Of a stretch of DNA of 41,073 nucleotides, positions 14,695 to 33,028 are shown piece after piece. The stretch comes from Rhizobium sp. Q54 (GTDB taxonomy: Bacteria; Pseudomonadota; Alphaproteobacteria; Rhizobiales; Beijerinckiaceae). Both the position numbers and the translations under genes were made by a program. The notes below the pieces were generated by a model. It was not told where the DNA came from and did no database searches. It was given only the letters and a program-made list of their open reading frames with translations. The first letter of the stretch is position 1; each line of letters opens with the position of its first letter. The DNA lies in contig CAMCUC010000022.1 of NCBI GenBank assembly GCA_945878875.1, forward strand, positions 1 through 41,073, in the 5' to 3' direction.

Positions 14695-15665
14695 CGCGCG
14701 CCTCCAGTCATAGCCGGATCGAGCACAGCGGGAACTGGCATTGGATAAGCCGGCGCCACGCCATGGTTGACAGCCCAAAGATACCAATTATCGACCACCG
14801 TGCCCGTGAGCAGGATCCCGATGCCGCCCGTCAGCGGGCATAACACGGCGAACCACCACGCCCAGCGATGGATCGATTCCATCGTAGCGTTGAATCCCAT
14901 CGTCCAGCGCCAGAACAGTGCCGCGCGCTCCGACGCCGTGCCACGATCGACGATCTGTTCAATCTCGCGCTCGCCGCCGTAACGACCTACCGCAAGAATG
15001 GTGGCCGCATGCATCGCAAACAACAACACCGATCCGTAAAGGAAGACGATGGATAGCGCGTGGAACGGATTGTAGAACAGGTTTCCGTAGCGAATGGAGA
15101 ACGCCGCCGTCCAGTCCAGATGCGGGAAGATGCCGAAGGGCACCGCCTCGCTCCATGAGCCCATCAGGATCGGGCGGATGAAGCCCAGCACCAGATAGAG
15201 CCAGATAGCAGCAGCAAACGCCCACGCCACATGCGTGCCCATGCCCAGCTGGCGTGCACGACGATACATGCGCAGCCACCACAACATGATCGACGCGGTG
15301 AGGAACATGCCCGCCATCAGCCACCAGCCGCCTTCGGCAAGCGGAGGAATGCTAAGGCCATATTTAGGCGCCGGCGGCTCAAGTCCGAGCCAGAACAATT
15401 GGCGGATGAACTGGACAAAATCCCAATTCACCGACGCGAGCATGTTAAGCCCGATAATCTCGAAGGCGATAATGCCGCACACCAGCGATGCAATGCCCGT
15501 ATAGCCGAGATAAATCGGACCTATTTGAGCATCTCCGAGTTTGCCGGCCCAATAGAAGAACAGGCTGTCCTTCGATCTTGGGAATGCTCCGACATCCGTC
15601 GGCGCGACGCCTGCGTAGGCAGGTCCGCGCACCTGGACGCGGGTGAAGATGTTTTGATAATCCAC
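14691..15665 (-). CDS. pufM: PufM, reaction centre M subunit
   Basis: Five-helix core subunit of the type-2 reaction centre, binding half of the special pair, accessory pigment, the carotenoid and QA. It is 324 aa. Seen: [17 protein letters not shown] at the N-terminus, the SHLDW-equivalent [10 protein letters not shown], the [14 protein letters not shown] special-pair region, and [16 protein letters not shown] with an iron-ligand His. It starts with GTG at 15665, supported by GGGAGG six bases upstream and by the conserved second residues; no nearby ATG fits. It begins 12 bases after pufL and couples to pufC. Confidence 0.97.
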
Positions 15666-15677
15666 GAGCGCCTCCCC

Positions 15678-16502
15678 TTAGCTCCAGATCGGAAGATCGA
15701 GCCACCAGCCCCACCATTCGGGCCAGCTGCGCGTCCAGAACGGTCCGCTGATGATGATGCAAACGGCGCTCCAGAACCCTGCCGACAGGGCAAGGAAGAG
15801 ACCGAGGCGATGAATGCCGAGAGCGCCGATCGAATAGCCGATCGTGTCACGGAAGAAGGTGTTCTCATGCTCCGCCGTTTTTACGACGTCGCCCTTCTTC
15901 GGGTTGGACGCCGACAGGATCAAAGATCCATGCAGCGCAAGCGCCATCGTCGTCGTGAAGAAGAACGTCACGGCGATCATGTGTGCAGGATTGTAGTGGA
16001 AGTGCAGATATTGATATCCAACGTTCGACACCCAATCGAGATGACTGAAGATGCCGTACGGAAAACCATGTCCCCATGCGCCAAGCAGCACAGGCCGTAT
16101 AACGACCAGCGACACGTAGGCGAAGATGGCGACGGAAAAGGCGAACGGCACATGATAGCCCATGCCCAGTTTGCGGCAGATCTCCACTTCGCGCAGCGCC
16201 CATGAAGAGAAGGCGCCGATCGCGCAGATCGTGATGACCTGCCACAGACCGCCTTCCATCAGCGGCGCAAGGCCAAGTCCATATTTCAAATCAGGCGGCT
16301 CAATGCTGATCTGCCAGGGGTTCCATGTTGGACCCTGGGAAGCGCCGTAGAAAATCAGCGCCGTTCCCAACACTGCAAAAAAGGCCGTCATGACGCCGAA
16401 GAAGCCGACATAAAACGGTCCGACCCAAAAGTCGAACATGTCGCCGCCTATCAGCGTGCCGCCGCGAACGCGATATTTTTTTTCGAAGCTGAGCATTGCC
16501 AT
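15678..16502 (-). CDS. pufL: PufL, reaction centre L subunit
   Basis: Core subunit of the photosynthetic reaction centre, binding bacteriochlorophylls, bacteriopheophytin and QB. It is 274 aa. [20 protein letters not shown] is the canonical N-terminus. Pigment and iron ligands are present in [31 protein letters not shown] and [10 protein letters not shown]. The ATG at 16502 is preceded by a GAGGGGGG run; the ATG at 16496 is an alternative. A 113-base spacer with a strong hairpin separates it from pufA. Confidence 0.98.
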
Positions 16503-22458: not shown

Positions 22459-23574
22459 TCAGGTCGCCTCGACCATGCTCGCCAGCAGGGGTCTGGGCGT
22501 GCGCACGCTGCGCACCGTGTTGAATCCGGCCTTCTCAAGCATGGCTTTGATTTCGCTGGCTGGCCGAGGGCGGCCACTCCCCATCGCGAGGAGATAAAAG
22601 CCAAAATAGGCATCGCCCATAGCTTGGGCGCCCGGCGTGTCCGACATGGGCTCAGCAATGACGAGTTTGCCGCCGGGGGCCAAAGCGGCGCGAATGGCGC
22701 GCAATAGAATCATCGCTGGGCCATCGTCATGATCGTGCAGAACCCGAACGAGCGTCGCAATGTCAGGTTTGCTGGTGCTGTTTTGGCCCGGTAACGAATC
22801 CCTCAGAAAGTCGCAGCCGTAAGCCGAGACCCGCTCGCGCATACCCCGCCGCTCGATACTGGCGCTCGCCCGCTGCGCCACCGCGGGCAAGTCGACCGCA
22901 ATCGCCTGCAATTTCGGCCACCGCCGCACCGCTTCCATCGCAAAGCCCGCCTCGCCGCCGCCCACGTCCATCAACAGATTCGCACCGGCAAGCGAATATG
23001 AATCCAGCACGTCATGGCGCACCAGGGTTTGCGATTCGTCCATCAAACGGCTGTAGGCGCTCACTTTATCGTCAGCGATGGCGTCCCGGTCAGGGCTGCG
23101 GGCATAGGCCCAGAAGTCTGAAAGGCCCGCCTCGCTGGGGCCGCGCCGAAGCAGCGCCACGGGGTCGGCCATATCGGCATAGACCATGCGATGATGCGCG
23201 ATCATCGAGAACGCGCCCGGATTGCCCAGAAGCGCCGCGCCTTTCATGCCCAGCCCAAACGAATCAGCCCCGCGCTTGTCAACGAGACCCAATGCGGCGG
23301 CACCCAGCAGCAGGCGCTCTGCCGCTGCGCGTGAAAGCTTCATGGAATCAGCCAGATCGTCGAGGCTGCGGGCGCCATGGCGCAGCGCTTCAAACAGGTT
23401 CAGCTCCGCGCATGCGAGCAGAATTTGCGAATAGACAAAGCCCGCCGCCAGATCGAACGCCTGCCGGCCCTGACTGGCGGCAATGCGACGCGTCAGGAAA
23501 AAACGGGCGGCAAAAGATTGAAAACGCTGATCGGCGATCAAGTCGTTGCGCAAATCGCGCCAATGTCGAAACAT
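22459..23574 (-). CDS. crtF: CrtF, demethylspheroidene/hydroxycarotenoid O-methyltransferase
   Basis: SAM-dependent methyltransferase that methylates the tertiary 1-hydroxy groups of acyclic carotenoids on the way to spheroidene or spirilloxanthin. It is 371 aa from the ATG at 23574. An N-terminal winged-helix dimerisation domain (FDLAAGFVYSQILLACAELNLFEAL) is followed by the SAM loop MDVGGGEAG near residue 202 and the LHDHDD motif further on. The frame stays open to a TTG at 23607, inside crtE, so the start is uncertain; neither has a good ribosome site. Second gene after crtE, followed by the bchC promoter. Confidence 0.92.
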   Translation of the reverse strand: MFRHWRDLRNDLIADQRFQSFAARFFLTRRIAASQGRQAFDLAAGFVYSQILLACAELNLFEALRHGARSLDDLADSMKLSRAAAERLLLGAAALGLVDKRGADSFGLGMKGAALLGNPGAFSMIAHHRMVYADMADPVALLRRGPSEAGLSDFWAYARSPDRDAIADDKVSAYSRLMDESQTLVRHDVLDSYSLAGANLLMDVGGGEAGFAMEAVRRWPKLQAIAVDLPAVAQRASASIERRGMRERVSAYGCDFLRDSLPGQNSTSKPDIATLVRVLHDHDDGPAMILLRAIRAALAPGGKLVIAEPMSDTPGAQAMGDAYFGFYLLAMGSGRPRPASEIKAMLEKAGFNTVRSVRTPRPLLASMVEAT

Positions 23575-23587
23575 CAGGGACAAGCCA

Positions 23588-24454
23588 TCACGCAGCCAGA
23601 CGGGCAATGTCGTCAGGCAGGAAGCGCATCGCCTCCTGACGGATCAGACCGGACAATTCGGCGGCACGCGGACAAGCGGGAATGGCGGAAATGGCCATAT
23701 CCACCAGATCGTCGAGACGATGGATCGCCCCCTGCACGCCAAGCTCCCGACAAGCGCTGGGCCGCGCCAGCGCGACGTCGCGCCCGACCGGCTTGCCCAG
23801 AACGTTGGCGTCGCCAACAGCATCGCGAATGTCGTCAGCGACCTGATAAGCCTCACCAATATAGGCGCCGACATTGCGCCACGCCTCATGTGGGACACCC
23901 GCTGCAGCCGCGCCCGCCATCGTGGCGGCGGCAAACAATGATCCTGTTTTGGCGCAATGATAGCGCGAGAGATCAATCTGGGGCTCGCATTCCCAGGCCT
24001 GCCCAGCGGCGATGCCGCCAGCTGCGCCGCCTGCCTGGCTGACGATGCGAACAAGCGGACCAAGCCGCCCGGGGCGATTCTGCGCACCAACCGCCAGCGC
24101 ATCGAACGCCATTACGATCAGGGCGTCGCCGGTCAGCACGGCCAGCGGCTCGCCAAAGGCCCGATGCAACGAAAGCTTGCCGCGCCGCATGTCGGAATCG
24201 TCAAAACACGGCAGATCGTCGTGAACGAGCGAGGCGCAATGCAAAAGCTCAATGGCTGCGCCCGCGCCTTCCGCCAACGCCCAATCGTCGGCCCCGCACG
24301 CCCAAGCCACGCTCATGCAAAGCTTGGGACGCAGCCGCGCCCCGCCGGGAAACACGGCGTAGCGCAGTGCCGCCGCCAATTTGCGCGGGCTGTCTTGCTC
24401 AGCGCAGGCGATGGCCGTCTCAAGCGTCTGCTCAATCCTGTCGAGGGGGTCCAT
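23588..24454 (-). CDS. crtE: CrtE, geranylgeranyl diphosphate synthase
   Basis: Trans-prenyltransferase making GGPP for carotenoids and for the bacteriochlorophyll tail. It is 288 aa. The first Asp-rich motif DDLPCFDDSDMRRG lies near residue 80 and the second, VADDIRDAVGD, in the C-terminal half. GGARLRPKL is the substrate-binding region. The ATG at 24454 was chosen for its GGAGG five bases upstream; the longer frame would run through the promoter. It heads crtEF and has the same twin-operator promoter layout as bchC. Confidence 0.95.
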   Translation of the reverse strand: MDPLDRIEQTLETAIACAEQDSPRKLAAALRYAVFPGGARLRPKLCMSVAWACGADDWALAEGAGAAIELLHCASLVHDDLPCFDDSDMRRGKLSLHRAFGEPLAVLTGDALIVMAFDALAVGAQNRPGRLGPLVRIVSQAGGAAGGIAAGQAWECEPQIDLSRYHCAKTGSLFAAATMAGAAAAGVPHEAWRNVGAYIGEAYQVADDIRDAVGDANVLGKPVGRDVALARPSACRELGVQGAIHRLDDLVDMAISAIPACPRAAELSGLIRQEAMRFLPDDIARLAA

Positions 24455-24471
24455 GCTATCCTCCGCTCTAT

Positions 24472-24515
24472 TGTCATCCCAGCATGACACTACCTTACGT
24501 CTTGTCAACCTGACA
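24472..24515. promoter_or_regulatory. crtE/crtD divergent promoter with twin PpsR/CrtJ operators
   Basis: TGTCATCCCAGCATGACA (24472-24489) is a perfect TGT-N12-ACA and a full dyad, TGTCAT/ATGACA. CGTCTTGTCAACCTGACA (24498-24515) is CGT-N12-ACA, that is TGT-N12-ACG on the minus strand. The gap is 8 bases, the same as at bchC. A perfect minus-strand -35 TTGACA (24503-24508) lies inside the distal site, and the expected crtE -10 position falls in the proximal one. The same DNA can serve crtD on the plus strand. Confidence 0.8.
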
Positions 24516-24557
24516 CATGACGACTATGCCTGAAGCATGTGTTTCAGGGAGCAAAGC

Positions 24558-26045
24558 TTGCGTCAGCGCCATGTCATCATTGTTGGAGCGGGCGTCGGCG
24601 GCCTGATGGCGGCGCTGATTCTGGCTGGACGCGGCGTGAAGGTGACCGTGCTGGAGCGCGCAGCGACGCCGGGCGGCAAGATGCGGCAGATGTTTGACGG
24701 CGACGCTGCGATAGACGCTGGCCCGACAGTCTTCACGCTGAAAAAGATTTTTCAGGAAGCGTTCGCCAGCGTCGCTCTCGATTTTGACGCCTGCGCGCCC
24801 TCAACGCGCGCAAACGTTCTCGCCCGCCACGCGTGGGATGGTGACACGCAATTCGATCTCTTCGCCGACATTCCCCGCTCTATTGAAGCGGTAGGCAATT
24901 TCGCAGGCGCGGCGGAGGCTGAAGGCTTTGTGCGCTTTTGCGAGGATTCGCAGCGCGTATGGCGCTCGCTGGAACGCTCATTCGTGCGCGCGCCCGCCCC
25001 CTCATTCATGGGCATGCTGAAGGGTGCAGGCTTGCGTGGCCTCCCTGATCTGCTTGCGGTGAGCCCGTTTCAAACGCTGTGGGACCAACTTGATAGCTAT
25101 TTCAAAGACCCGCGCCTGCGCCAATTGTTCGGCCGCTATTCTACTTATTGCGGCTCCTCGCCATATCTTGCGCCCGCGACGTTGATGCTCGTCGCACACG
25201 TCGAGCAGGACGGCGTGTGGATGATTGAGGGCGGCATGCACCGGCTGGCGCAAGTAATTGCAGAACAGGGGCAGATAAAGGGCGCTGAATTTCGCTATGG
25301 CGTACACGTCGACAGCATGACCCGAGCGTATGACAGAAGCATTGTGAGGCTGGCCGACGGCGAAATAATTGAGGCAGACGCTATCATCTTCAATGGTGAT
25401 TCCAGCGCTCTCGCGCAGGGACTTCTCGGGCTCGATATGAAAAATGCTGCGCCGCCTGTGACGCCAAATCAGCGCTCGCTCTCAGCTATAACTTGGACTC
25501 TTTCGACGCGCACCCGCGGCTTTCCGCTGGTGCGGCATAACGTTTTCTTTTCATCAAATTACAAGTCCGAATTCGATGCGCTCGAAAGCGGTCGATTGGT
25601 CGACGATCCGACAATCTACGTCTGTGCGCAGGATCGCGGCGACGAATATGCCCCGCGCGACGCGCCTGAGCGCCTGCTTGCGCTTGTCAACGCGCCAGCC
25701 ATTGGCGATGCGCGCGAGCTTAACTCACAGGAGATCGCCGCATGCACGAGAAAAGCGATGGCGCGGCTGGGCCAATGCGGACTGCACATGGACACGGCGC
25801 CGAGCCTGCTACAAACAACAAGCCCCAATTGCTTCAACAACCTGTTCCCAGGCACGGGGGGAGCGCTTTACGGTCGGGCGTCGCACGGGTGGAGGGCCTC
25901 GTTCCAGAGGCCGGGCGTGCGGACGAAAATGCCGGGCCTCTATCTGGCGGGGGGCAGCGTGCATCCGGGGCCGGGCGTGCCGATGGCGGCGCTTTCGGGC
26001 TGGGCGGCAGCCACTTGCGCGCTGACGGACCTGACTTCTCGGTAA
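24558..26045 (+). CDS. crtD: CrtD, 1-hydroxycarotenoid 3,4-desaturase
   Basis: Phytoene-desaturase-family flavoprotein that introduces the 3,4 double bond into 1-hydroxylated acyclic carotenoids. It is 495 aa. FAD motif VIIVGAGVGGLMAALILAGRG near the N-terminus, TPGGKMR, DAGPTVFT, and the C-terminal flavin motif GLYLAGGSVHPGPGVPMA. DAGPTVFTLK with the GGKMR variant points to CrtD, not CrtI. The TTG at 24558 has GGGAG six bases upstream; the ATG at 24537 adds seven residues with no homology or good ribosome site. Divergent from crtE and followed by crtC. Confidence 0.92.
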   Translation: MRQRHVIIVGAGVGGLMAALILAGRGVKVTVLERAATPGGKMRQMFDGDAAIDAGPTVFTLKKIFQEAFASVALDFDACAPSTRANVLARHAWDGDTQFDLFADIPRSIEAVGNFAGAAEAEGFVRFCEDSQRVWRSLERSFVRAPAPSFMGMLKGAGLRGLPDLLAVSPFQTLWDQLDSYFKDPRLRQLFGRYSTYCGSSPYLAPATLMLVAHVEQDGVWMIEGGMHRLAQVIAEQGQIKGAEFRYGVHVDSMTRAYDRSIVRLADGEIIEADAIIFNGDSSALAQGLLGLDMKNAAPPVTPNQRSLSAITWTLSTRTRGFPLVRHNVFFSSNYKSEFDALESGRLVDDPTIYVCAQDRGDEYAPRDAPERLLALVNAPAIGDARELNSQEIAACTRKAMARLGQCGLHMDTAPSLLQTTSPNCFNNLFPGTGGALYGRASHGWRASFQRPGVRTKMPGLYLAGGSVHPGPGVPMAALSGWAAATCALTDLTSR

Positions 26046-26953
26046 CGGTTGCACAGAACGGTTATGCTTGGTGGTATGTTGACGCGATCAGCGACGACGG
26101 CGAATACGCGCTTACTATAATAGCTTTTATTGGTAGCGTATTTTCACCCTATTACAAATGGGCGAGACGGAGCGGGCCAACAGAACCGCTCAATCATTGT
26201 GCGATCAACGTCGCTCTTTACGGGCGCAAGCACCAACGCTGGACGATGACGGAGCGCTCAAAGCGCTTCGTAAAACGTGACAAGAATACGTTTGAGGTGG
26301 GGCCAAGCTCGATGCGCTGGGAGGACGGTGCGCTCGTTATCGACATTCATGAAATCAGCGCCCCTTTGCCACGACGCGTGCACGGGCGCGTGCGCCTGCG
26401 CCCGCAAGGATTATTCAGCGAAAGTTTTAATCTGGACGATGCGGGCCGTCATCGCTGGGGACCAATTGCGCCTGTGGCGCAGGTAGAAGTAGAGATGCAA
26501 CATCCTGATCTGCGTTGGAGCGGACAGGGCTATTTTGATCACAATAACGGCGACGAGCCGCTTGAAGACGCATTCTCCAGCTGGGATTGGTCGCGCGCGC
26601 ATGCCGGGAGCGATACGCTGATCCATTACGACGCGCTGACAAAAAATGGCGCCACGCGCACGCTTGGGCTGCGCTTCGTACCTAATGGAGAGATCGAAAG
26701 CATTCCCTCGCCGCCATCGCAACCGCTGCGCAAGACGCTTTGGCGCATAGATCGCAACGTGAGATGCGAGCCTGGAGCAAGGCCGAGCGTAGTAAAGACG
26801 CTCGAAGATACGCCATTTTATGCGCGTTCAATTGTTCAGACAAATCTTGGCGGAGAAGAGCTTCACGGCGTACACGAACGCTTGCGGCTGGATCGGTTCT
26901 GCGCGCCAATCGTGCAAGGCATGTTGCCGTTTCGTATGCCGCGCGTTAGCTGA
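26015..26953 (+). CDS. crtC: CrtC, acyclic carotenoid 1,2-hydratase
   Basis: Adds water across the terminal double bond of neurosporene or lycopene-type carotenoids, the step before CrtD and CrtF. It is 312 aa. The N-terminal family block GYAWWYVDAISDDGEYALTIIAFIGSVFSPYY begins about residue 14, then NHCAINVALYG and the C-terminal TPFYARSIVQT. The start is a TTG at 26015, overlapping crtD by 31 bases; no ATG or GTG fits between it and the conserved block, so the start is tentative. Its 3' end overlaps the 49-codon gene of the opposite strand by 8 bases. Confidence 0.92.
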   Translation: MRADGPDFSVTVAQNGYAWWYVDAISDDGEYALTIIAFIGSVFSPYYKWARRSGPTEPLNHCAINVALYGRKHQRWTMTERSKRFVKRDKNTFEVGPSSMRWEDGALVIDIHEISAPLPRRVHGRVRLRPQGLFSESFNLDDAGRHRWGPIAPVAQVEVEMQHPDLRWSGQGYFDHNNGDEPLEDAFSSWDWSRAHAGSDTLIHYDALTKNGATRTLGLRFVPNGEIESIPSPPSQPLRKTLWRIDRNVRCEPGARPSVVKTLEDTPFYARSIVQTNLGGEELHGVHERLRLDRFCAPIVQGMLPFRMPRVS

Positions 26954-27095
26954 CCTGTTCGGCGCGCTCGTTTTTGCGTTCCGCCTCGCGTTTCAAACGA
27001 TGCCTGCGCAGCAGCCATAATTCGCGAAAGCACCACGCGAGCGGAACGCCAAACGCAAAGGCAAGCTCAATAGGGCCATACCAGCGTTCGTCCAT
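26946..27095 (-). CDS. Small single-helix membrane protein behind crtB
   Basis: A 49-aa gene below usual length cut-offs. It starts MDERWYGPIELAFAFGVPLA, with a hydrophobic segment at about 8-29 and a long basic/acidic tail (RRHRLKREAERKNERAEQVS). Its ATG lies in the crtB stop (TGATG, 27093-27097), so it is translationally coupled to crtB. That coupling, the sensible membrane-plus-charged-tail design and the lack of any other gene in this space argue it is real. It would be a one-pass inner membrane protein with an amphipathic cytoplasmic tail. I recall similar small unnamed proteins near crtB in related clusters but cannot check. Function unknown; a CrtB anchor or partner is a guess. Confidence 0.7.
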   Translation of the reverse strand: MDERWYGPIELAFAFGVPLAWCFRELWLLRRHRLKREAERKNERAEQVS

Positions 27096-28165
27096 CAGGC
27101 CGCCCCAACATCCCGGCTTGTCGACGGCTGGCGGGCACGTTCCGCCGCCTCCATACGCTCGAACAAATCAATCACCCAGCCGACCTGCCCCGTGAACGAA
27201 CGATCTTGGCGCACAGGCGTTTCCTGTCGGGCTGACGCTGTCACAAGGTAAGCCGCCTCCGGCAAGGCAGGCTGCGGGCGCGCGGCGCCGGAGATCAACG
27301 CAGACGCCAACGAATGCGCCAGTAAAACAACCTTGCGCGATTTGGGGACATATGCGCGCTGACTCACGCTGTCCATGCCATTGGCTTTGATGCGTGCGCC
27401 AATGTCTGCGTATATGCGTCGAGCACCCCAGATTGCGTGGCGCGCATCAAAAGGCAACAGGGCGATGCCGCTCTCGGAGCGCTTGTAAAGGCGATCCGCC
27501 TCACCAAGCAGGCGCGCCGTCATGCGCGCAATCTGCGGACAAAAAACCGGATCAGCGAGCCAGACATCGGCATCAAGCCCCTCCTCCTCAAACCAGTCGA
27601 GAGGGAGATAAATGCGGCCCGCGCGAGCGTCCTCACCAACATCGCGGGCGATGTTGGTGAGCTGCATCGCGACACCAAGATCACACGCACGCGAGAGCGC
27701 TTCCGCATTGCGCACGCCAAGCAGCAACGTCATCATCGCGCCAACAGAGCCCGCGACCCGCACGCCATAGGCGCAGACGTCGGACAAAGTTTGATAACGA
27801 CGGCCGGCAGCATCCCAGGCAAAGCCCTCAATCAGCGCCATCGGCAACTCTACCGGCAGCGCGCGACGGGCCGCCATGTCACAAAATGCGCGATCAACGG
27901 GAGCATCGTACGGGCGCCCCTCATAGGCGCAATTAAGCCTGTGCCGCAGGGTCTCAACGGCATTGGACGCGGCGCCGATAGAATCCACCTCATCGTCAGC
28001 AACGCGGCAAAAAGCATAGAGCGCGTGCACATCTGGCCGAATGCGCGCGGGCAACATCAGCGAGGCTGCATAAAAAGATTTAGAGCCAATGCGCAAAAGC
28101 TCGCGGCAAGCAGAAAGATCGCTTGAACTGGCGTGACGGGGCCGGAGATCATCTGCGTAAAACAT
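27095..28165 (-). CDS. crtB: CrtB, phytoene synthase
   Basis: Head-to-head condensation of two GGPP to phytoene, the first carotenoid step. It is 356 aa. Asp-rich motifs: ALYAFCRVADDEVD near residue 55 and QLTNIARDVGEDARAGRIYLP near residue 170. IGSKSFYAASLMLP is the N-terminal block. About 15 extra residues precede it (MFYADDLRPRH), so a slightly later start cannot be excluded. An exact PpsR operator lies 35 bases before the ATG, so crtB probably has its own promoter in addition to readthrough from the ATP-grasp gene. Stop overlaps the 49-codon gene. Confidence 0.96.
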   Translation of the reverse strand: MFYADDLRPRHASSSDLSACRELLRIGSKSFYAASLMLPARIRPDVHALYAFCRVADDEVDSIGAASNAVETLRHRLNCAYEGRPYDAPVDRAFCDMAARRALPVELPMALIEGFAWDAAGRRYQTLSDVCAYGVRVAGSVGAMMTLLLGVRNAEALSRACDLGVAMQLTNIARDVGEDARAGRIYLPLDWFEEEGLDADVWLADPVFCPQIARMTARLLGEADRLYKRSESGIALLPFDARHAIWGARRIYADIGARIKANGMDSVSQRAYVPKSRKVVLLAHSLASALISGAARPQPALPEAAYLVTASARQETPVRQDRSFTGQVGWVIDLFERMEAAERARQPSTSRDVGAA

Positions 28166-28199: not shown

Positions 28200-28217
28200 T
28201 GTCGCGCAGCGATGACA
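28200..28217 (-). promoter_or_regulatory. PpsR/CrtJ operator upstream of crtB
   Basis: TGTCGCGCAGCGATGACA matches TGT-N12-ACA exactly, with outer TGTC/GACA dyad, in the 62-base gap between the ATP-grasp gene and crtB. On the minus strand TTGTCA (5/6 of a -35) overlaps its upstream edge. It marks a separate, repressible promoter for crtB inside the P450 gene group. Confidence 0.7.
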
Positions 28218-28227
28218 AGCGAGTGCG

Positions 28228-29346
28228 TCACGAAATGCCCCGCCACAGAAAATCTTGTGACGCCGCCTCGCCAAACGAACAGTTTAACTTGCGCGACAGA
28301 GCGATGATTGGCCACGCCGACCAGGGTTGGCCCAACAACGGCCATGGATCATCGCGCGCCCATGTGACGTCGCGCACGCTGAGCAACATGCCAATGTTTG
28401 CGCGAAGCCGCGCCCAATCGCCAAAACTGGCCTGCGTTTCTGATAAACACGGCCAGAATTGCTGAAGTTGCACCGGTTTTCGTAACCGAATATGCAACGC
28501 GGGATCGATTATGCCACCAGCAATATCATCAGTTTCAAAAAAGTGAACGCCGCTGGTCAGGCGCGGATTACACTCGATGCCCCAGGACGTTCCAGACTCG
28601 TCAACGATGAAATCGAAAGAGATAAAGCCGCACCATTTTGCGGCGGCTACAAAGGTTGCGACCCATGCTTGTATCGCGTCGTTTTCAACGCGTTCAAAGC
28701 TCACTGCGACCGTGCCTGACATCATTGCGCCGCGATAAATAGCGCTGGCCTGCACCACGCCCTGATGGGCCAAAGCGCAGACGCTGTGCTCGGCGCCAGC
28801 TATTGCGCGCTGCAAGATTGCTCCCGGAAGGGCTGGCGTTTGTGCACCTTTTGCAAACATTTGCACGCCGATGCCCGCGCATGAATGGCGCGGCTTGAGG
28901 ACGCTGGCGCCGGAGCTTGCAAGCGTACTCGCCTCATCGCTATCAGCGGCATATGTTTCAGGTACGCTTAACCCATAATGCTGCGCAAACGCTATGAAGC
29001 CCGCCTTGTCGTGCAGCGCGAGCAGATGAGCTTGCGGCATCGCAAGGATTCGCACGCATGCTGGCACCCTGTCGCGCAAGGCCGCAACATACAGAATTTC
29101 TTCGGACACCGGCACGACCAGCCGCACGTTTTCAGTCTCAATGACCGCAAGCAGATCATCGAGAAACCCTTGCGATGCTTGTGCAGGAGCGCGCACCTGA
29201 TAGCTTTTGGAAACAGCGCGCGAGGCGCCCAGCACATGACGGGGAAACGGATCAGCAACAATCACGCGCCAGCCTGCGCGCGCAAAGCTGCGTGCGACGT
29301 CCAGCCCTTTGGGCAAGCGGCCAAGCGTGAGAAGCACCGTTTTCAT
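28228..29346 (-). CDS. ATP-grasp domain ligase-like protein, PGC-linked
   Basis: A 372-aa protein of the carbamoyl-phosphate-synthase-like ATP-grasp type. N-terminal Rossmann-like half (KTVLLTLGRLPKGLDVARSFARAGWRVIVADPF). The ATP-binding core contains VLKPRHSCAGIGVQMF with the nucleotide Lys, and the Mg site is WGIECNPRLTSG (E-x-N-P-R). Such enzymes join an acyl-phosphate to an amine, thiol or hydroxyl nucleophile; the substrates here are unknown. Its ATG overlaps the P450 stop as ATGA (29343-29346), so the two are made together. It is not a known bacteriochlorophyll or carotenoid gene, although it sits directly before crtB. A role in tailoring a carotenoid or membrane lipid is inference. Confidence 0.75.
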   Translation of the reverse strand: MKTVLLTLGRLPKGLDVARSFARAGWRVIVADPFPRHVLGASRAVSKSYQVRAPAQASQGFLDDLLAVIETENVRLVVPVSEEILYVAALRDRVPACVRILAMPQAHLLALHDKAGFIAFAQHYGLSVPETYAADSDEASTLASSGASVLKPRHSCAGIGVQMFAKGAQTPALPGAILQRAIAGAEHSVCALAHQGVVQASAIYRGAMMSGTVAVSFERVENDAIQAWVATFVAAAKWCGFISFDFIVDESGTSWGIECNPRLTSGVHFFETDDIAGGIIDPALHIRLRKPVQLQQFWPCLSETQASFGDWARLRANIGMLLSVRDVTWARDDPWPLLGQPWSAWPIIALSRKLNCSFGEAASQDFLWRGIS

Positions 29347-30722
29347 TGGGTCTTTGCCTGCGTCACGCGGCACATGATCTGCTGCACGGGACGCGTGGTG
29401 AGGCGCGCAGCCGGCTGAACCTGCGCGTCGGGCGCAAGATGAAAATCGAATCGTCTCACAAGATCAGCGATAATCAACACCGCTTCGACAGTGGCGAACG
29501 CGGCGCCTGCACAGACGCGGGGTCCAAGACCAAACGGGATATAGGCGCCGGGCGTCATCTCGCTTTCGCGCTCTGGTGCAAAGCGATCTGGATCGAAAAC
29601 GTCGGGTTCACGCCAATACTTTTGATGGCGATGCAACACCCATGGCGCCACGATCACAAGCGCGCCGCGCGGGATTTTCCGACCGCCTATCTTTGTGGCC
29701 TGCGTAGCTACGCGCGGAAGAAATGTTATTGGCGGATAAAGCCGCAGCGTCTCGCGAAATACGTTGCGTGTAAAAGATAACCTCTTGATATGTTCAAACG
29801 CAATCGCGTTATCCCCAGCAACTGATTGTACCTCTGCACGAATGCGCGCCACGATCTCCGGCTGTTTGGCGAGAATGAAAAATACCCATGTCAGCGCGCT
29901 TGCGCTCGTCTCGTGTCCGGCGAGAAACAGTACGCCCAATTGATCGATCAGCTCTGCACGCGTGAAGCCTTCACCCTCAATGTCGCGCGCCAGCGCAATG
30001 TTGCGCGCAATGTCGTCATAGCGCTCACCCTCTGCTCCGATATGGTTTGACAGCATGTCATCGAGGTGGCTGCGTATCAGCGCGCAAGCGTCGAGCACGT
30101 CCTTGCGCTGGGCTATTTTCGTCCACGCCTTATCCATAATAAGGCGACGAATTTCCACCTGCGCGACGCTACGTTCAAATAATGTGAACGCATCGAAAAC
30201 CTCGCGCGAGGCATCATGCTCAAGGCTGGTGGAAAAGACCGTCCGGCAGATGACGTCTGCGGTGAGGTGCGACATTGCAAGATCAAGACTGAACGAAGCA
30301 CCATCATGCGCATGGCGCGCAAGCGTTTCCATACAGACGCCGACGCTTTTCTCGATTGCGGAAAAAGCGCGATTAACGCGCATCATCGTCAAGGCGGGAT
30401 CGACCATTTCACGCTGGCGACGCCATGTCGCACCGCTTGAGACGAAGATGCTGTCGCCGATCAAGGGTTCGAGCGCGTTGACCATGAGATCAGACTTTGG
30501 AAAAACTCCCTCCGGGTCAATCAAGACGCTGCGTGCAAGATCAGGCCGGTTCACAAGCATTGTCGTGCGCCGCGACCAGCCGAGCGGGCCAATGTCCATG
30601 TGGTAGGCCGAGCCGGGCAGCAGTCCTAAAAGATTGCCGTCGCCGCTGAGCGCGGCGCGCATCAGCGACATTAGCGCATTGCGCGGCGCGGGCCGTGGCG
30701 GGCGATAATGCGCGAGTGTCAC
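29343..30722 (-). CDS. Cytochrome P450 in the carotenoid region
   Basis: A 459-aa heme monooxygenase. Seen: C-helix WRRQRE (100-105), I-helix oxygen-binding AGHETSAS (268-275), ExxR as ETLR (324-327) and heme loop FGLGPRVCAG with thiolate Cys404. WRRQR plus AGHETS resemble the CYP102/CYP175-like group that includes fatty-acid and carotenoid hydroxylases; substrate cannot be read from sequence. No signal or membrane anchor. It starts with GTG at 30722, with AAGGAG nine bases upstream. It is translationally coupled to the ATP-grasp gene and divergent from a DUF2306-like membrane protein. It needs O2, at odds with the oxygen-repressed genes around it, and no TGT-N12-ACA site is seen before it. 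Confidence 0.9.
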   Translation of the reverse strand: MTLAHYRPPRPAPRNALMSLMRAALSGDGNLLGLLPGSAYHMDIGPLGWSRRTTMLVNRPDLARSVLIDPEGVFPKSDLMVNALEPLIGDSIFVSSGATWRRQREMVDPALTMMRVNRAFSAIEKSVGVCMETLARHAHDGASFSLDLAMSHLTADVICRTVFSTSLEHDASREVFDAFTLFERSVAQVEIRRLIMDKAWTKIAQRKDVLDACALIRSHLDDMLSNHIGAEGERYDDIARNIALARDIEGEGFTRAELIDQLGVLFLAGHETSASALTWVFFILAKQPEIVARIRAEVQSVAGDNAIAFEHIKRLSFTRNVFRETLRLYPPITFLPRVATQATKIGGRKIPRGALVIVAPWVLHRHQKYWREPDVFDPDRFAPERESEMTPGAYIPFGLGPRVCAGAAFATVEAVLIIADLVRRFDFHLAPDAQVQPAARLTTRPVQQIMCRVTQAKTQ

Positions 30723-30806
30723 AGATTTATACTCCTTGTCTTTGCATAGCGCCCGCGCTGCGATAGATTACGAGATATTGCTCTTTTGCAGGGCTGGGGA
30801 GCGGGT
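30723..30806. promoter_or_regulatory. Divergent P450 / membrane-protein promoter region
   Basis: 84 bases between the GTG of the P450 gene and the ATG of the plus-strand gene. Only ribosome sites are clear: AAGGAG for the P450 and GGGGAG for the membrane protein. No TGT-N12-ACA dyad is present, so this pair seems outside direct PpsR control. Confidence 0.4.
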
Positions 30807-31541
30807 ATGGAGTACAAAATTTTCGAGGCTCTTGTCGTCGCCCACATCCTGACCGGATCCCTTGGCGCCCTGACTTTCTGGATGCCTGTGCTCGGCGCCA
30901 AGGGCACGAAGATGCATCGCCTGTCGGGGCGCCTGTTCGTCGTCACGATGTTGCTGACGGGCACGTTCGCCATCGGCATGAGCATATTGACGTTGCTGGA
31001 ACCGATGGGCACGCATCCCCATCTTGTGGGGAAGTTCGATGACGATTTCGTGCGCGGAATCTTCGGCTGGTTGATGCTGCATCTGGGCATATTGACGATC
31101 AATCTGGCTTGGTACGGCTGGCTTTGCGCGCGCAACAGGGCGCAGCGCGAACCCATGCGCGAATGGCGTAATCTTGCGTTGCAACCTTTGTTGCTGATTG
31201 CGGCGATCAATTGCGCAGCGCAGGGCTGGCTTATCAGCCAGCCTCTCATGCTCGGCGTCTCGGTAATCGGCATCGCCACTGTGCTCACCAATGTCTGGTT
31301 CCTTTACAAGCCAGCGCCCGGCGCCATGGACTGGCTGAAGGAGCATGTGAAAGCGCTCATTGGCGCAGGCATTTCCGTCTACACTGCGTTCCTGGCGTTC
31401 GGCTCCGTGCGCGCCTTTCCTGAACTCGCACTAAGTCCGGTTATGTGGTCTGTTCCGGCGGCTACCGGCATCGCGTTTATCCTCTGGCACTGGCGCAGGA
31501 TTGATCGCAAGCTGCACGCTCACAAACAGCGCGCCTCCTGA
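30807..31541 (+). CDS. DUF2306-like multi-pass membrane protein
   Basis: A 244-aa protein with about seven hydrophobic segments. The N-terminal part has AHILTGSLGALTFWMPVLG then KMHRLSGRLFVVTMLLTG, the spaced His residues and HRxxGR pattern seen in DUF2306-type membrane proteins, which may bind heme. The ATG at 30807 has GGGGAG at good spacing; a TTG at 30786 would add seven residues. It is divergent from the P450 and its last 22 bases overlap the end of crtI on the other strand. A redox or electron-transfer role next to a P450 is attractive but unproven. The family call is from memory of the pattern. Confidence 0.6.
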   Translation: MEYKIFEALVVAHILTGSLGALTFWMPVLGAKGTKMHRLSGRLFVVTMLLTGTFAIGMSILTLLEPMGTHPHLVGKFDDDFVRGIFGWLMLHLGILTINLAWYGWLCARNRAQREPMREWRNLALQPLLLIAAINCAAQGWLISQPLMLGVSVIGIATVLTNVWFLYKPAPGAMDWLKEHVKALIGAGISVYTAFLAFGSVRAFPELALSPVMWSVPAATGIAFILWHWRRIDRKLHAHKQRAS

Positions 31542-33028
31542 AACTCCTGCGCCGCAGGGATAAGATCAGCCACGATCTTCGCCGATGAAATCACGCCTGG
31601 AAGACCTGCGCCCGGATGTGTGCCTGCTCCAACAAGATAGAGCCCCTTGGCCTCCTCGCTCTTGTTGTGCGGACGAAACCACGCACTTTGAAACAATTGC
31701 GGCTCAAAAGAAAACGCCGCGCCCTTCTCTGAGAGCAGCCGGTCGCGGAAATCAAGCGGCGTCATGATTCGTGAGGTAATGATGCTTTCCGACAGACCGG
31801 GCATGATCGTATCTTCAAGCCGCTGCTCAATGGCTTTGCGATAACTTTCAGACTTTGTAACCCAATCGGTTCCGCTATCAAGATGGGGCACTGGCGCCAG
31901 CGCGTAAAAAGCATCGCAGCCTTCCGGCGCCAGCGATGGATCAGTCATCGTCGGGCGATGCAGATAAAGGCTGAAATCTTCCGCCAGAACCTTGCGCGAG
32001 AAAATATCCTTGAGCAATTCCTCATAGCGTGGACCAAGCACCATCATATGGTGATAGACGTCGTCATATTTGCGATTGGTGCCAAAATACCAGACGAACA
32101 GGCTCATGGAATAGCGGGCGCGCGAGAGCTTGGAATCCGTCCAGCGTTTGCGCTTTGTGTTGCTCATCAGCTTGCCGTAGGTCCAGGCGGCGTCGGCGTT
32201 CGAGATCACAAGATCGGCGTTCACGATCTCGCCGCCGACAAGCATCACGCCTGCAGCGCGGCCATTCTCGACGATGATTTGCTCAACTTGTGCATTATAA
32301 CGGATCGATCCGCCCAGCTTTTCAAGCAAGCGCACCAGCCCTTTCACGATGGCCCCGGTTCCGCCCATTGCGAAATGAACCAGATGCTGACGCTCCAGAT
32401 GCGAGATCAGGCAATAATAGGCGGTCGTCGTCAGCGGATTGCCGCCGATCAGCAGCGGATGAAAGCTGAAGGCAACGCGCAGTTTCTCATTGGTGAAATA
32501 TTGCCCAACCTTATTGTAAACTGAGCGAAAACCGCCAAGCCTTATCAAATCAGGCACCGACAGGATCAGCGATTTCAATTCGTGAAACGGTTTGTCGGCA
32601 AGGTCTTTGAATGCGACTTCATAAATCGCTTCGCTGTCTTTGAGGAAGCGGTCAAAGCCAGCAAGATCGCGCGGCTCGATGCGTTTGACCTCGGCGCGCA
32701 TGGCGTCAAGATCGGCGGCGCAATTGATGATCTCGCCGTCGTCAAAGCGGATTTGATAGAACGGATCCATCGCGCGCAGCTCGACATCGTCGGATAATTT
32801 TGCGCCCGCCAGCTCCCATATTTCTTCCAGCAAATAAGGTGCGGTGATAATGGTGGGACCACCGTCAAACGTAAAACCGTCTTGCTTGAAGACATAGGCG
32901 CGGCCGCCCGGCGCATCGAGTTTTTCAATAATCGTTACCCGCCAGCCTTTTGCAGCAAGCCGCACAGCGACGGCCAGACCGCCAAAGCCCGATCCAATGA
33001 CGAGCGCGTGGGGCGCAGAATTATGCAT
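31520..33028 (-). CDS. crtI: CrtI, phytoene desaturase
   Basis: FAD-dependent desaturase taking phytoene to neurosporene or lycopene; the downstream gene set (crtC, D, F, no crtA) suggests lycopene and spirilloxanthin. It is 502 aa. Dinucleotide motif ALVIGSGFGGLAVAVRLAAKG at the N-terminus, APGGRAYVF, FDGGPTIIT, and C-terminal GLYLVGAGTHPGAGLPGV. The ATG at 33028 has CGGAG nine bases upstream and overlaps the bchO end by 8 bases. Last gene of dxs-bchO-crtI. Unusually, crtI is not next to crtB, which lies 3.4 kb further left. Confidence 0.96.
   Translation of the reverse strand: MHNSAPHALVIGSGFGGLAVAVRLAAKGWRVTIIEKLDAPGGRAYVFKQDGFTFDGGPTIITAPYLLEEIWELAGAKLSDDVELRAMDPFYQIRFDDGEIINCAADLDAMRAEVKRIEPRDLAGFDRFLKDSEAIYEVAFKDLADKPFHELKSLILSVPDLIRLGGFRSVYNKVGQYFTNEKLRVAFSFHPLLIGGNPLTTTAYYCLISHLERQHLVHFAMGGTGAIVKGLVRLLEKLGGSIRYNAQVEQIIVENGRAAGVMLVGGEIVNADLVISNADAAWTYGKLMSNTKRKRWTDSKLSRARYSMSLFVWYFGTNRKYDDVYHHMMVLGPRYEELLKDIFSRKVLAEDFSLYLHRPTMTDPSLAPEGCDAFYALAPVPHLDSGTDWVTKSESYRKAIEQRLEDTIMPGLSESIITSRIMTPLDFRDRLLSEKGAAFSFEPQLFQSAWFRPHNKSEEAKGLYLVGAGTHPGAGLPGVISSAKIVADLIPAAQEFQEARCL

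Follow-up and report, generated by a model that had tools for sequence, protein, structure and literature searches.

A conserved trio of genes for a cytochrome P450, an ATP-grasp enzyme and a membrane protein as a probable carotenoid-tailoring cassette of phototrophic bacteria

Here, we describe a group of three genes in a window of 41,073 nucleotides from Rhizobium sp. Q54, the window being the whole stretch of DNA that was analysed. This stretch constitutes a photosynthesis gene cluster (PGC), with the reaction-centre genes for PufLM at 14757-16415, and comes from a 93%-complete genome of 2.8 Mb. Within the PGC, genes for a cytochrome P450 and an ATP-grasp enzyme are placed between crtI and crtB, and a gene for a membrane protein occupies the space between the P450 gene and crtI; profile scans place bchO together with crtC, crtD, crtE-like and crtF-like genes in the same neighbourhood (Table 1). 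The original prediction for this DNA described a complete P450 and a complete ATP-grasp enzyme with their characteristic motifs, joined by an ATGA overlap. Both open reading frames (ORFs) were confirmed at the positions in Table 1 and end on stop codons. The prediction overlooked the divergent membrane-protein gene, which is the third member of the unit. We refer to the three genes as the cassette. None of the three proteins matched a canonical spirilloxanthin enzyme family (CrtE, CrtB, CrtI, CrtC, CrtD, CrtF and the ketolase CrtA) in profile scans. This agrees with the earlier claim that P450 and ATP-grasp enzymes stand outside the standard spirilloxanthin pathway, as do passages of a 2023 review (PMC10604819), in which P450 is mentioned twice (as a general enzyme type and in the statement that CrtA is not one) and ATP-grasp, ligase and carboxyl are not mentioned.

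Table 1. Features of the cassette and its surroundings in the window
Feature	Position	Strand	Basis and remarks
Cytochrome P450, 459 aa, GTG start	29343..30722	-	Complete ORF with stop, PF00067
ATP-grasp ligase-like enzyme, 372 aa from the ATG in the overlap	28228..29346	-	Complete ORF with stop, PF02655
ATGA stop/start overlap of the P450 and ATP-grasp genes	29343..29346	-	TCAT on the plus strand, ATGA on the coding strand
Polytopic membrane protein, 244 aa	30807..31541	+	Divergent from P450; 22-bp convergent overlap with crtI; start in ORF finder TTG 30786
Divergent intergenic region, P450/membrane protein	30723..30806		Exact-motif scan
PpsR/CrtJ-like palindrome TGT-N12-ACA	28200..28217	+	Upstream of crtB, in the 62-bp gap after the ATP-grasp stop
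crtI, phytoene desaturase	31520..33028	-	TIGR02734 608 bits, cut-off 238
crtB, phytoene synthase	27095..28165	-	PF00494 227 bits; NF045921 393 bits, under cut-off 500
crtD, 1-hydroxycarotenoid 3,4-desaturase	24537..26045	+	NF045637 645 bits, cut-off 580
crtC, carotenoid 1,2-hydratase	26117..26953	+	NF045922 297 bits, under cut-off 400; coordinates are those of the family match, which starts at ~26117 within ORF 25742-26953 (start codon provisional)
crtF-like O-methyltransferase	22459..23607	-	Name from PF00891 and cluster position
crtE-like polyprenyl diphosphate synthase	23588..24508	-	Profile matches

The P450 belongs to the P450 family with 266 bits against PF00067 (cut-off 22.8), and it carries the motifs WRRQRE, AGHETS (268-273) and ETLR (324-327) and the Cys404 heme loop. 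Residues W100, A268-T272, E324, R327 and C404 are invariant among 19 aligned sequences, that of the window included. By sequence, its closest solved structures are those of the carotenoid hydroxylases CYP97A3/LUT5, and LUT5 reaches 231 bits with the family profile. Like the cassette P450, the CYP97 enzymes (LUT5/CYP97A3 and CYP97C1) have the standard P450 motifs, and their substrates are carotenoids. However, they are plant plastid enzymes that act on cyclic carotenes, whereas the neighbours of the window P450 gene (crtC, crtD and crtF-like) belong to the acyclic pathway, and the window gene, unlike those of CYP97, is coupled to an ATP-grasp gene. By nomenclature rule, members of CYP97 share more than ~40% identity with one another. 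In one metagenome-assembled genome (MAG), the P450 is spread over two ORFs (L106:4942-6313), i.e., a frameshift or an assembly error.

The ATP-grasp protein scores 35.2 bits with PF02655 (cut-off 23.2). Its fold and E-x-N-P-R site are intact, it has the two ATP-binding Lys residues and the Mg-binding Asp/Glu...Glu-x-Asn residues that define the superfamily, and K114, K151, D245 and E258-R262 are invariant among 24 aligned sequences, including that of the window. Its best NCBIfam match is NF005315 (PRK06849, hypothetical protein, ATP-grasp), which covers it over nearly its whole length; yet the window protein (221 bits) and three other cassette members (204-258) score under the equivalog cut-off of 406 bits. 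Distant relatives of the ATP-grasp enzyme (L117, L118, L139, L140, L141 and L147) recur with genes for an SDR/epimerase, an MBL-fold hydrolase and an F390-synthetase-like protein, often joined by beta-ketoacyl synthase III and a Rieske protein, in what is an unassigned biosynthetic cluster. The contents of these operons were read by Pfam scan for L139, by annotation for L147 (Pontibacillus plasmid NZ_CP062975.1) and by likeness of sequence starts for the others; one further distant relative sits outside this operon type. Plasmid records contained eight distant ATP-grasp matches and no P450 match at E <= 1e-90.

The structure model of the membrane protein (pLDDT 90.1) consists chiefly of long helices, and His residues 13, 37, 70, 72 and 180 are invariant in the alignment. 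Among PDB folds, the protein had no confident counterpart (lowest Foldseek E-value 0.095); a sequence comparison gave nothing at E <= 1, and the score with DUF2306 (PF10067) was 20.2 bits, under the cut-off of 31.6 for membership. Of 83 loci examined, 44 have a CrtD-type gene adjoining the membrane-protein gene in the same orientation. An apparent fusion of the two proteins in L084 and L090, produced by an ORF script, was rejected because on translation the two genes of L084 are separated by a stop and the extension in L090 is out of frame.

Several lines of evidence show that the P450 and ATP-grasp genes form a conserved pair. Relatives were collected in one profile scan of named genomes, for which eight aligned ATP-grasp sequences served as the query; 199 were found and the best 80 kept, and these 80 named loci are not independent, many being from Roseomonas MAGs. 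First, the P450 gene lies beside the ATP-grasp gene in 75 of the 80 loci; in the five loci without a full P450 (L045, L050, L075, L079 and L099), a contig end lies 35-412 bases from the beginning of the ATP-grasp gene, and a P450 fragment is left in L079. All 76 measured pairs are on one strand, and 43 of them have the exact 4-base overlap, with start codons picked mechanically. Second, when 87 ATP-grasp proteins were clustered at 70% identity, 33 of the 34 clusters had the P450, while the 34th (L134) is cut at a contig end. Third, in a sample of 61 genomes from the genus and order, 27 have a P450 at E <= 1e-60. A P450 of at least 60% identity is present in nine, which are the nine with the cassette ATP-grasp (one as a contig-end fragment); the P450s of the other 18 reach at most 39%. 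The membrane-protein gene is present in 68 of the 80 named loci.

The gene order is more variable than the gene content. In other families of the order, P450 and ATP-grasp genes lie on opposite strands, ~30 bp to 5.7 kb apart, in all six further loci that show both (L132, L133 and L135-L138), and the same is true of L029. Because genes in this arrangement cannot be held together by an operon alone, selection for co-localization is the simpler reading of a trio that remains clustered through rearrangement. Tree distances correlate between P450 and ATP-grasp (r = 0.80, 78 loci), P450 and membrane protein (0.84, 72 loci), ATP-grasp and CrtI (0.86, 57 loci) and membrane protein and CrtI (0.72, 55 loci). 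The cassette proteins also correlate with CrtD (0.63-0.79) and with CrtB, BchO and the bchX-type ORF 20413 (0.64-0.78, 17-27 loci), and thus the trees show joint descent rather than exclusive pairing. The values for CrtI (0.72-0.86) were obtained with an identity floor; without it, r was near 0, which we attribute to paralogues taken where CrtI is off the contig. The membrane-protein alignment excludes L036, the neighbour clustering excludes the duplicates L033 and L027, and the trees exclude L033.

The constant neighbours of the cassette are crtI, crtD, crtB and crtC. A crt gene is present in 74 of the 80 named loci, and in 73 of these 74 the nearest one is within 300 bp of the cassette; the six loci without a crt gene (L066, L070, L077, L079, L108 and L111) are stretches of only 5-12 kb. 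By comparison, bch/puf or other PGC genes of the window were found near the cassette in 44 of the 80. In Novosphingobium sp. AAP83 (G459), the cassette lies beside the lycopene cyclase gene crtY on contig C13 while PufLM are encoded on C23, and in two further genomes (G614 and G531) the cassette lies with crtI, plus crtD in G614, on a contig that differs from that of PufLM; because all three are drafts, they do not fix the true distances between cassette and PufLM. Thus, a carotenoid gene, rather than a reaction-centre or bacteriochlorophyll gene, is the constant partner of the cassette. Crt genes that accompany the cassette on contigs without PufLM, and the clustering that is kept, support a carotenoid role over a bacteriochlorophyll role, and gene neighbourhood provides good support for the carotenoid link. 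The original prediction would have counted as refuted if most homologues had shown no linkage to one another or to crt/bch genes; the opposite was found, the pair being a unit linked with carotenoid genes in Alphaproteobacteria and, judging from MAG titles, also in Gammaproteobacteria.

The cassette occurs mostly in phototrophs. Among 397 genomes of the order, for which the best few ATP-grasp candidates per genome were scored, PufLM were found in 76 and the close ATP-grasp family (E <= 1e-130) in nine, all of them among the 76 (hypergeometric p = 2.3e-7 if independent) and spanning five genera. Distant ATP-grasp relatives (E 5e-59 to 3e-69) occur in five further genomes of the order, and PufLM were found in none of these. 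In a class sample of 385 genomes, 26 with PufLM, the only close match was in the source genome itself, and in 74 genomes of the sphingomonad family, it was in G459, the query's own, with distant matches in three. All but one (L038) of the 36 named loci without PGC genes nearby come from 34 searched genomes, 29 of which have PufLM. The cassette is found in the cultured Rubritepida flocculans, Roseococcus suduntuyensis (L110), Paracraurococcus ruber (L037) and Novosphingobium sp. AAP83 and in Roseococcus MAGs (L063 and L109), and mostly in genera that we take to be aerobic anoxygenic phototrophs. The suggestion that an oxygen-dependent step points to a role under oxic or semi-oxic conditions found no support as worded, in that the cassette does not follow the loss of the anaerobic cyclase: BchE scored over the cut-off in 11 of 27 cassette genomes vs 8 of 33 phototrophs without the cassette.

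The regulatory sequences are less uniform. The palindrome TGT-N12-ACA, which we take to be a PpsR/CrtJ site, occurs eight times in the window vs 3.39 expected, a number reached in 4 of 100 shuffles. One of these sites is in the 62-bp gap that separates crtB from the end of the ATP-grasp gene. Thus, crtB adjoins the pair as originally described, but the pair does not simply run into it, and from the palindrome crtB possibly has a promoter of its own. In relatives, the divergent P450/membrane-protein region with 60-bp flanks contains the motif in 15 of 66 cases vs a shuffle mean of 1.7 and maximum of 6 (100 shuffles), which suggests photosynthesis-type control of the cassette in some lineages.

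Altogether, the co-occurrence of the three genes, their position next to crt genes, the retained catalytic residues and their presence mostly in genomes with reaction-centre genes support a model in which the P450, the ATP-grasp enzyme and the divergent membrane protein are probably a carotenoid-tailoring cassette of phototrophs. We place the cassette among the kinds of gene set already known to tailor carotenoids, from which its ATP-grasp partner sets it apart; we know of no ATP-grasp enzyme that acts on a carotenoid. A two-step chemistry is plausible. ATP-grasp enzymes turn a carboxylate into an acyl phosphate, from which the acyl group is transferred to a nucleophile. Therefore, of the proposed hydroxylation followed by ATP-driven conjugation, the two-step unit is retained as an inference, while plain hydroxylation is a poorer fit than either oxidation to a carboxylic acid or the attachment of an activated small acid to a hydroxyl. 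We suggest that the P450 would oxidize a spirilloxanthin-type carotenoid at a methyl or aliphatic end, probably repeatedly and up to the carboxylic acid, and that the ATP-grasp enzyme would then convert this carboxylate into an acyl phosphate and join the acyl group to an amine or hydroxyl. In a mirror variant, the ATP-grasp enzyme would activate a small acid and place it on the carotenoid hydroxylated by the P450. The membrane protein may handle the pigment in the membrane or assist the CrtI or CrtD step, and the product would be a polar carotenoid for light-harvesting complex 1 (LH1) or photoprotection.

Several observations weigh against this model. The similarity of the P450 to CYP97 is distant, and a substrate is not readable from a likeness this remote; the proposed chemistry is predicted from the genes, and the role of the membrane protein is a guess. 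Distant ATP-grasp relatives (~30% identity) have other, non-carotenoid gene surroundings, and those in the class sample are in four genomes, two of them phototrophs. Five of the 34 searched genomes of named loci gave no PufLM match. Among 37 genomes of the genus, the cassette and PufLM are each in eight and both in four (Fisher p = 0.049), i.e., only half of the cassette genomes show PufLM and four phototrophs lack the cassette. The four cassette genomes without PufLM are 58, 63, 76 and 93% complete (the last being G024); all four have crt genes on the cassette contig, and three also have bchO or bchXYZ-type genes. In G033 (L115), one of the genus phototrophs without the cassette, 28 bp separate the crtI match from the crtB match, an arrangement that resembles the empty site. 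In the order, 67 of the 76 phototrophs are without the cassette ATP-grasp, and phototrophy therefore does not need the cassette, which is an optional extra; the absence from most sampled phototrophs was not seen in the original prediction. Finally, the exact palindrome is absent from the window's own divergent region, and many of the 15 motif-bearing promoters come from related lineages.

Other functions were considered for the same genes. Rather unlikely, in our view, is that only the P450 works on the carotenoid skeleton while a small acid such as an amino acid or sugar acid, activated by the ATP-grasp enzyme, is esterified to the new hydroxyl, giving an aminoacyl or depsi-type ester and not the amide of a carotenoid acid. 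Ester-forming ATP-grasp enzymes exist, e.g., D-Ala-D-Lac ligase and the microviridin ligases, and relatives of the fold include the amino-acid ligases PylC (4ffl) and an L-amino acid ligase (3vot); however, no residue or partner gene pointing to an amino acid substrate was found. A P450 that makes only a keto, aldehyde or acid carotenoid, similar to rhodopinal or gemmatoxanthin, next to an ATP-grasp enzyme with a separate task has a low probability. Gemmatoxanthin does carry a free C16 carboxyl and a C19' formyl according to passages of PMC8342508, and the opposite-strand loci show that the two genes are not always one operon, but close ATP-grasp relatives without the P450 were seen only at contig ends and the two trees correlate. 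It is improbable that the cassette modifies some other component required for photosynthesis (a bacteriochlorophyll side chain, a membrane lipid, a quinone or a hopanoid), with its closeness to crt genes due simply to dense packing of the cluster: the PGC genes near many loci, and L070, in which the cassette adjoins genes like window ORFs 12141 (bchP-type) and 9914 (bchG-type; both names from position) on a contig without crt, would fit, but crt genes are closer and more constant, the three drafts hold cassette and crt on contigs without reaction-centre genes, and among solved structures, carotenoid hydroxylases are the closest matches to the P450. For a membrane lipid, the alternative target of the original prediction, no evidence was found in this analysis.

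A carotenoid-tailoring cassette would bear on pigments with known structures. No description of the cassette was found among the papers listed in searches of open-access literature, which covered text and not figures; in PMC3338782, a cytochrome P450 is named in the legend of a figure that shows the Citromicrobium PGC with its flanks. According to the passages concerned, nothing is known of rhodopinal genes (PMC10604819), and gemmatoxanthin is a methoxy carotenoid whose oxidizing enzymes are unknown or hypothetical (PMC8342508). Because the methyl-oxidizing enzymes for both are reported as unknown, the cassette is a testable candidate. The PGC of Gemmatimonas was acquired from Proteobacteria, and its spirilloxanthin-like carotenoid with oxidized methyls parallels the proposed cassette product; however, passages by its authors propose CruH-like proteins for the carboxyl (PMC8342508). 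Similarly, Roseococcus thiosulfatophilus, of the same genus as the cassette-bearing R. suduntuyensis and the two Roseococcus MAGs, is reported to have a C30 carotenedioate and its diglucosyl ester, but this is a C30 compound from another species, and the passages assign no genes to it (PMC12654162). We regard both parallels as possible leads and not as tests. Plain spirilloxanthin is made by, e.g., Elioraea tepida, whose pigments are given in PMC8781829. A conserved cassette beside crt genes of cultured species makes the question of the carotenoid carboxyl and aldehyde enzymes directly testable, and it could explain the pigments of phototrophs whose enzymes remain to be found. It is conceivable, if on balance doubtful, that the cassette defines an undescribed class of acyclic carotenoids, oxidized by the P450 at an end or side methyl to the carboxylate and conjugated in an ATP-dependent manner as amide or ester, in which case the P450 would supply the methyl oxidase that is missing for phototroph carotenoids, with a product that would tune LH1.

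Passages of PMC12654162 give an LH1 peak at 854-856 nm for the aerobic phototrophs R. thiosulfatophilus, P. ruber and Roseomonas sp. CK155, with a blue-shifted LH1 at 856 nm in P. ruber. All three are in cassette-bearing genera; the cassette itself was seen in P. ruber only, and the coincidence may be chance.

Among the named loci, the nearest relative of the window cassette is on a MAG contig titled Rhizobium sp. (ATP-grasp identity 95%), and the second-nearest (71%) is titled Beijerinckiaceae. MAG titles at L073, L047, L091 and L033 (Klebsiella pneumoniae, Asaia bogorensis and Rhizobium sp.) look doubtful for contigs that bear photosynthesis or crt genes. A conserved protein of ~427 aa is encoded at 17 loci (L036:1075-2334 and 16 others), several times beside bchO, and matches none of 35 window ORFs compared. 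Lastly, a gene from one and the same sequence cluster is found between crtI and crtB near the cassette in a Sphingomonadaceae MAG (L088:4630-5214) and a Novosphingobium MAG (L104:4660-5238); the L088 gene belongs to PF03641, the possible lysine decarboxylase/LOG family.

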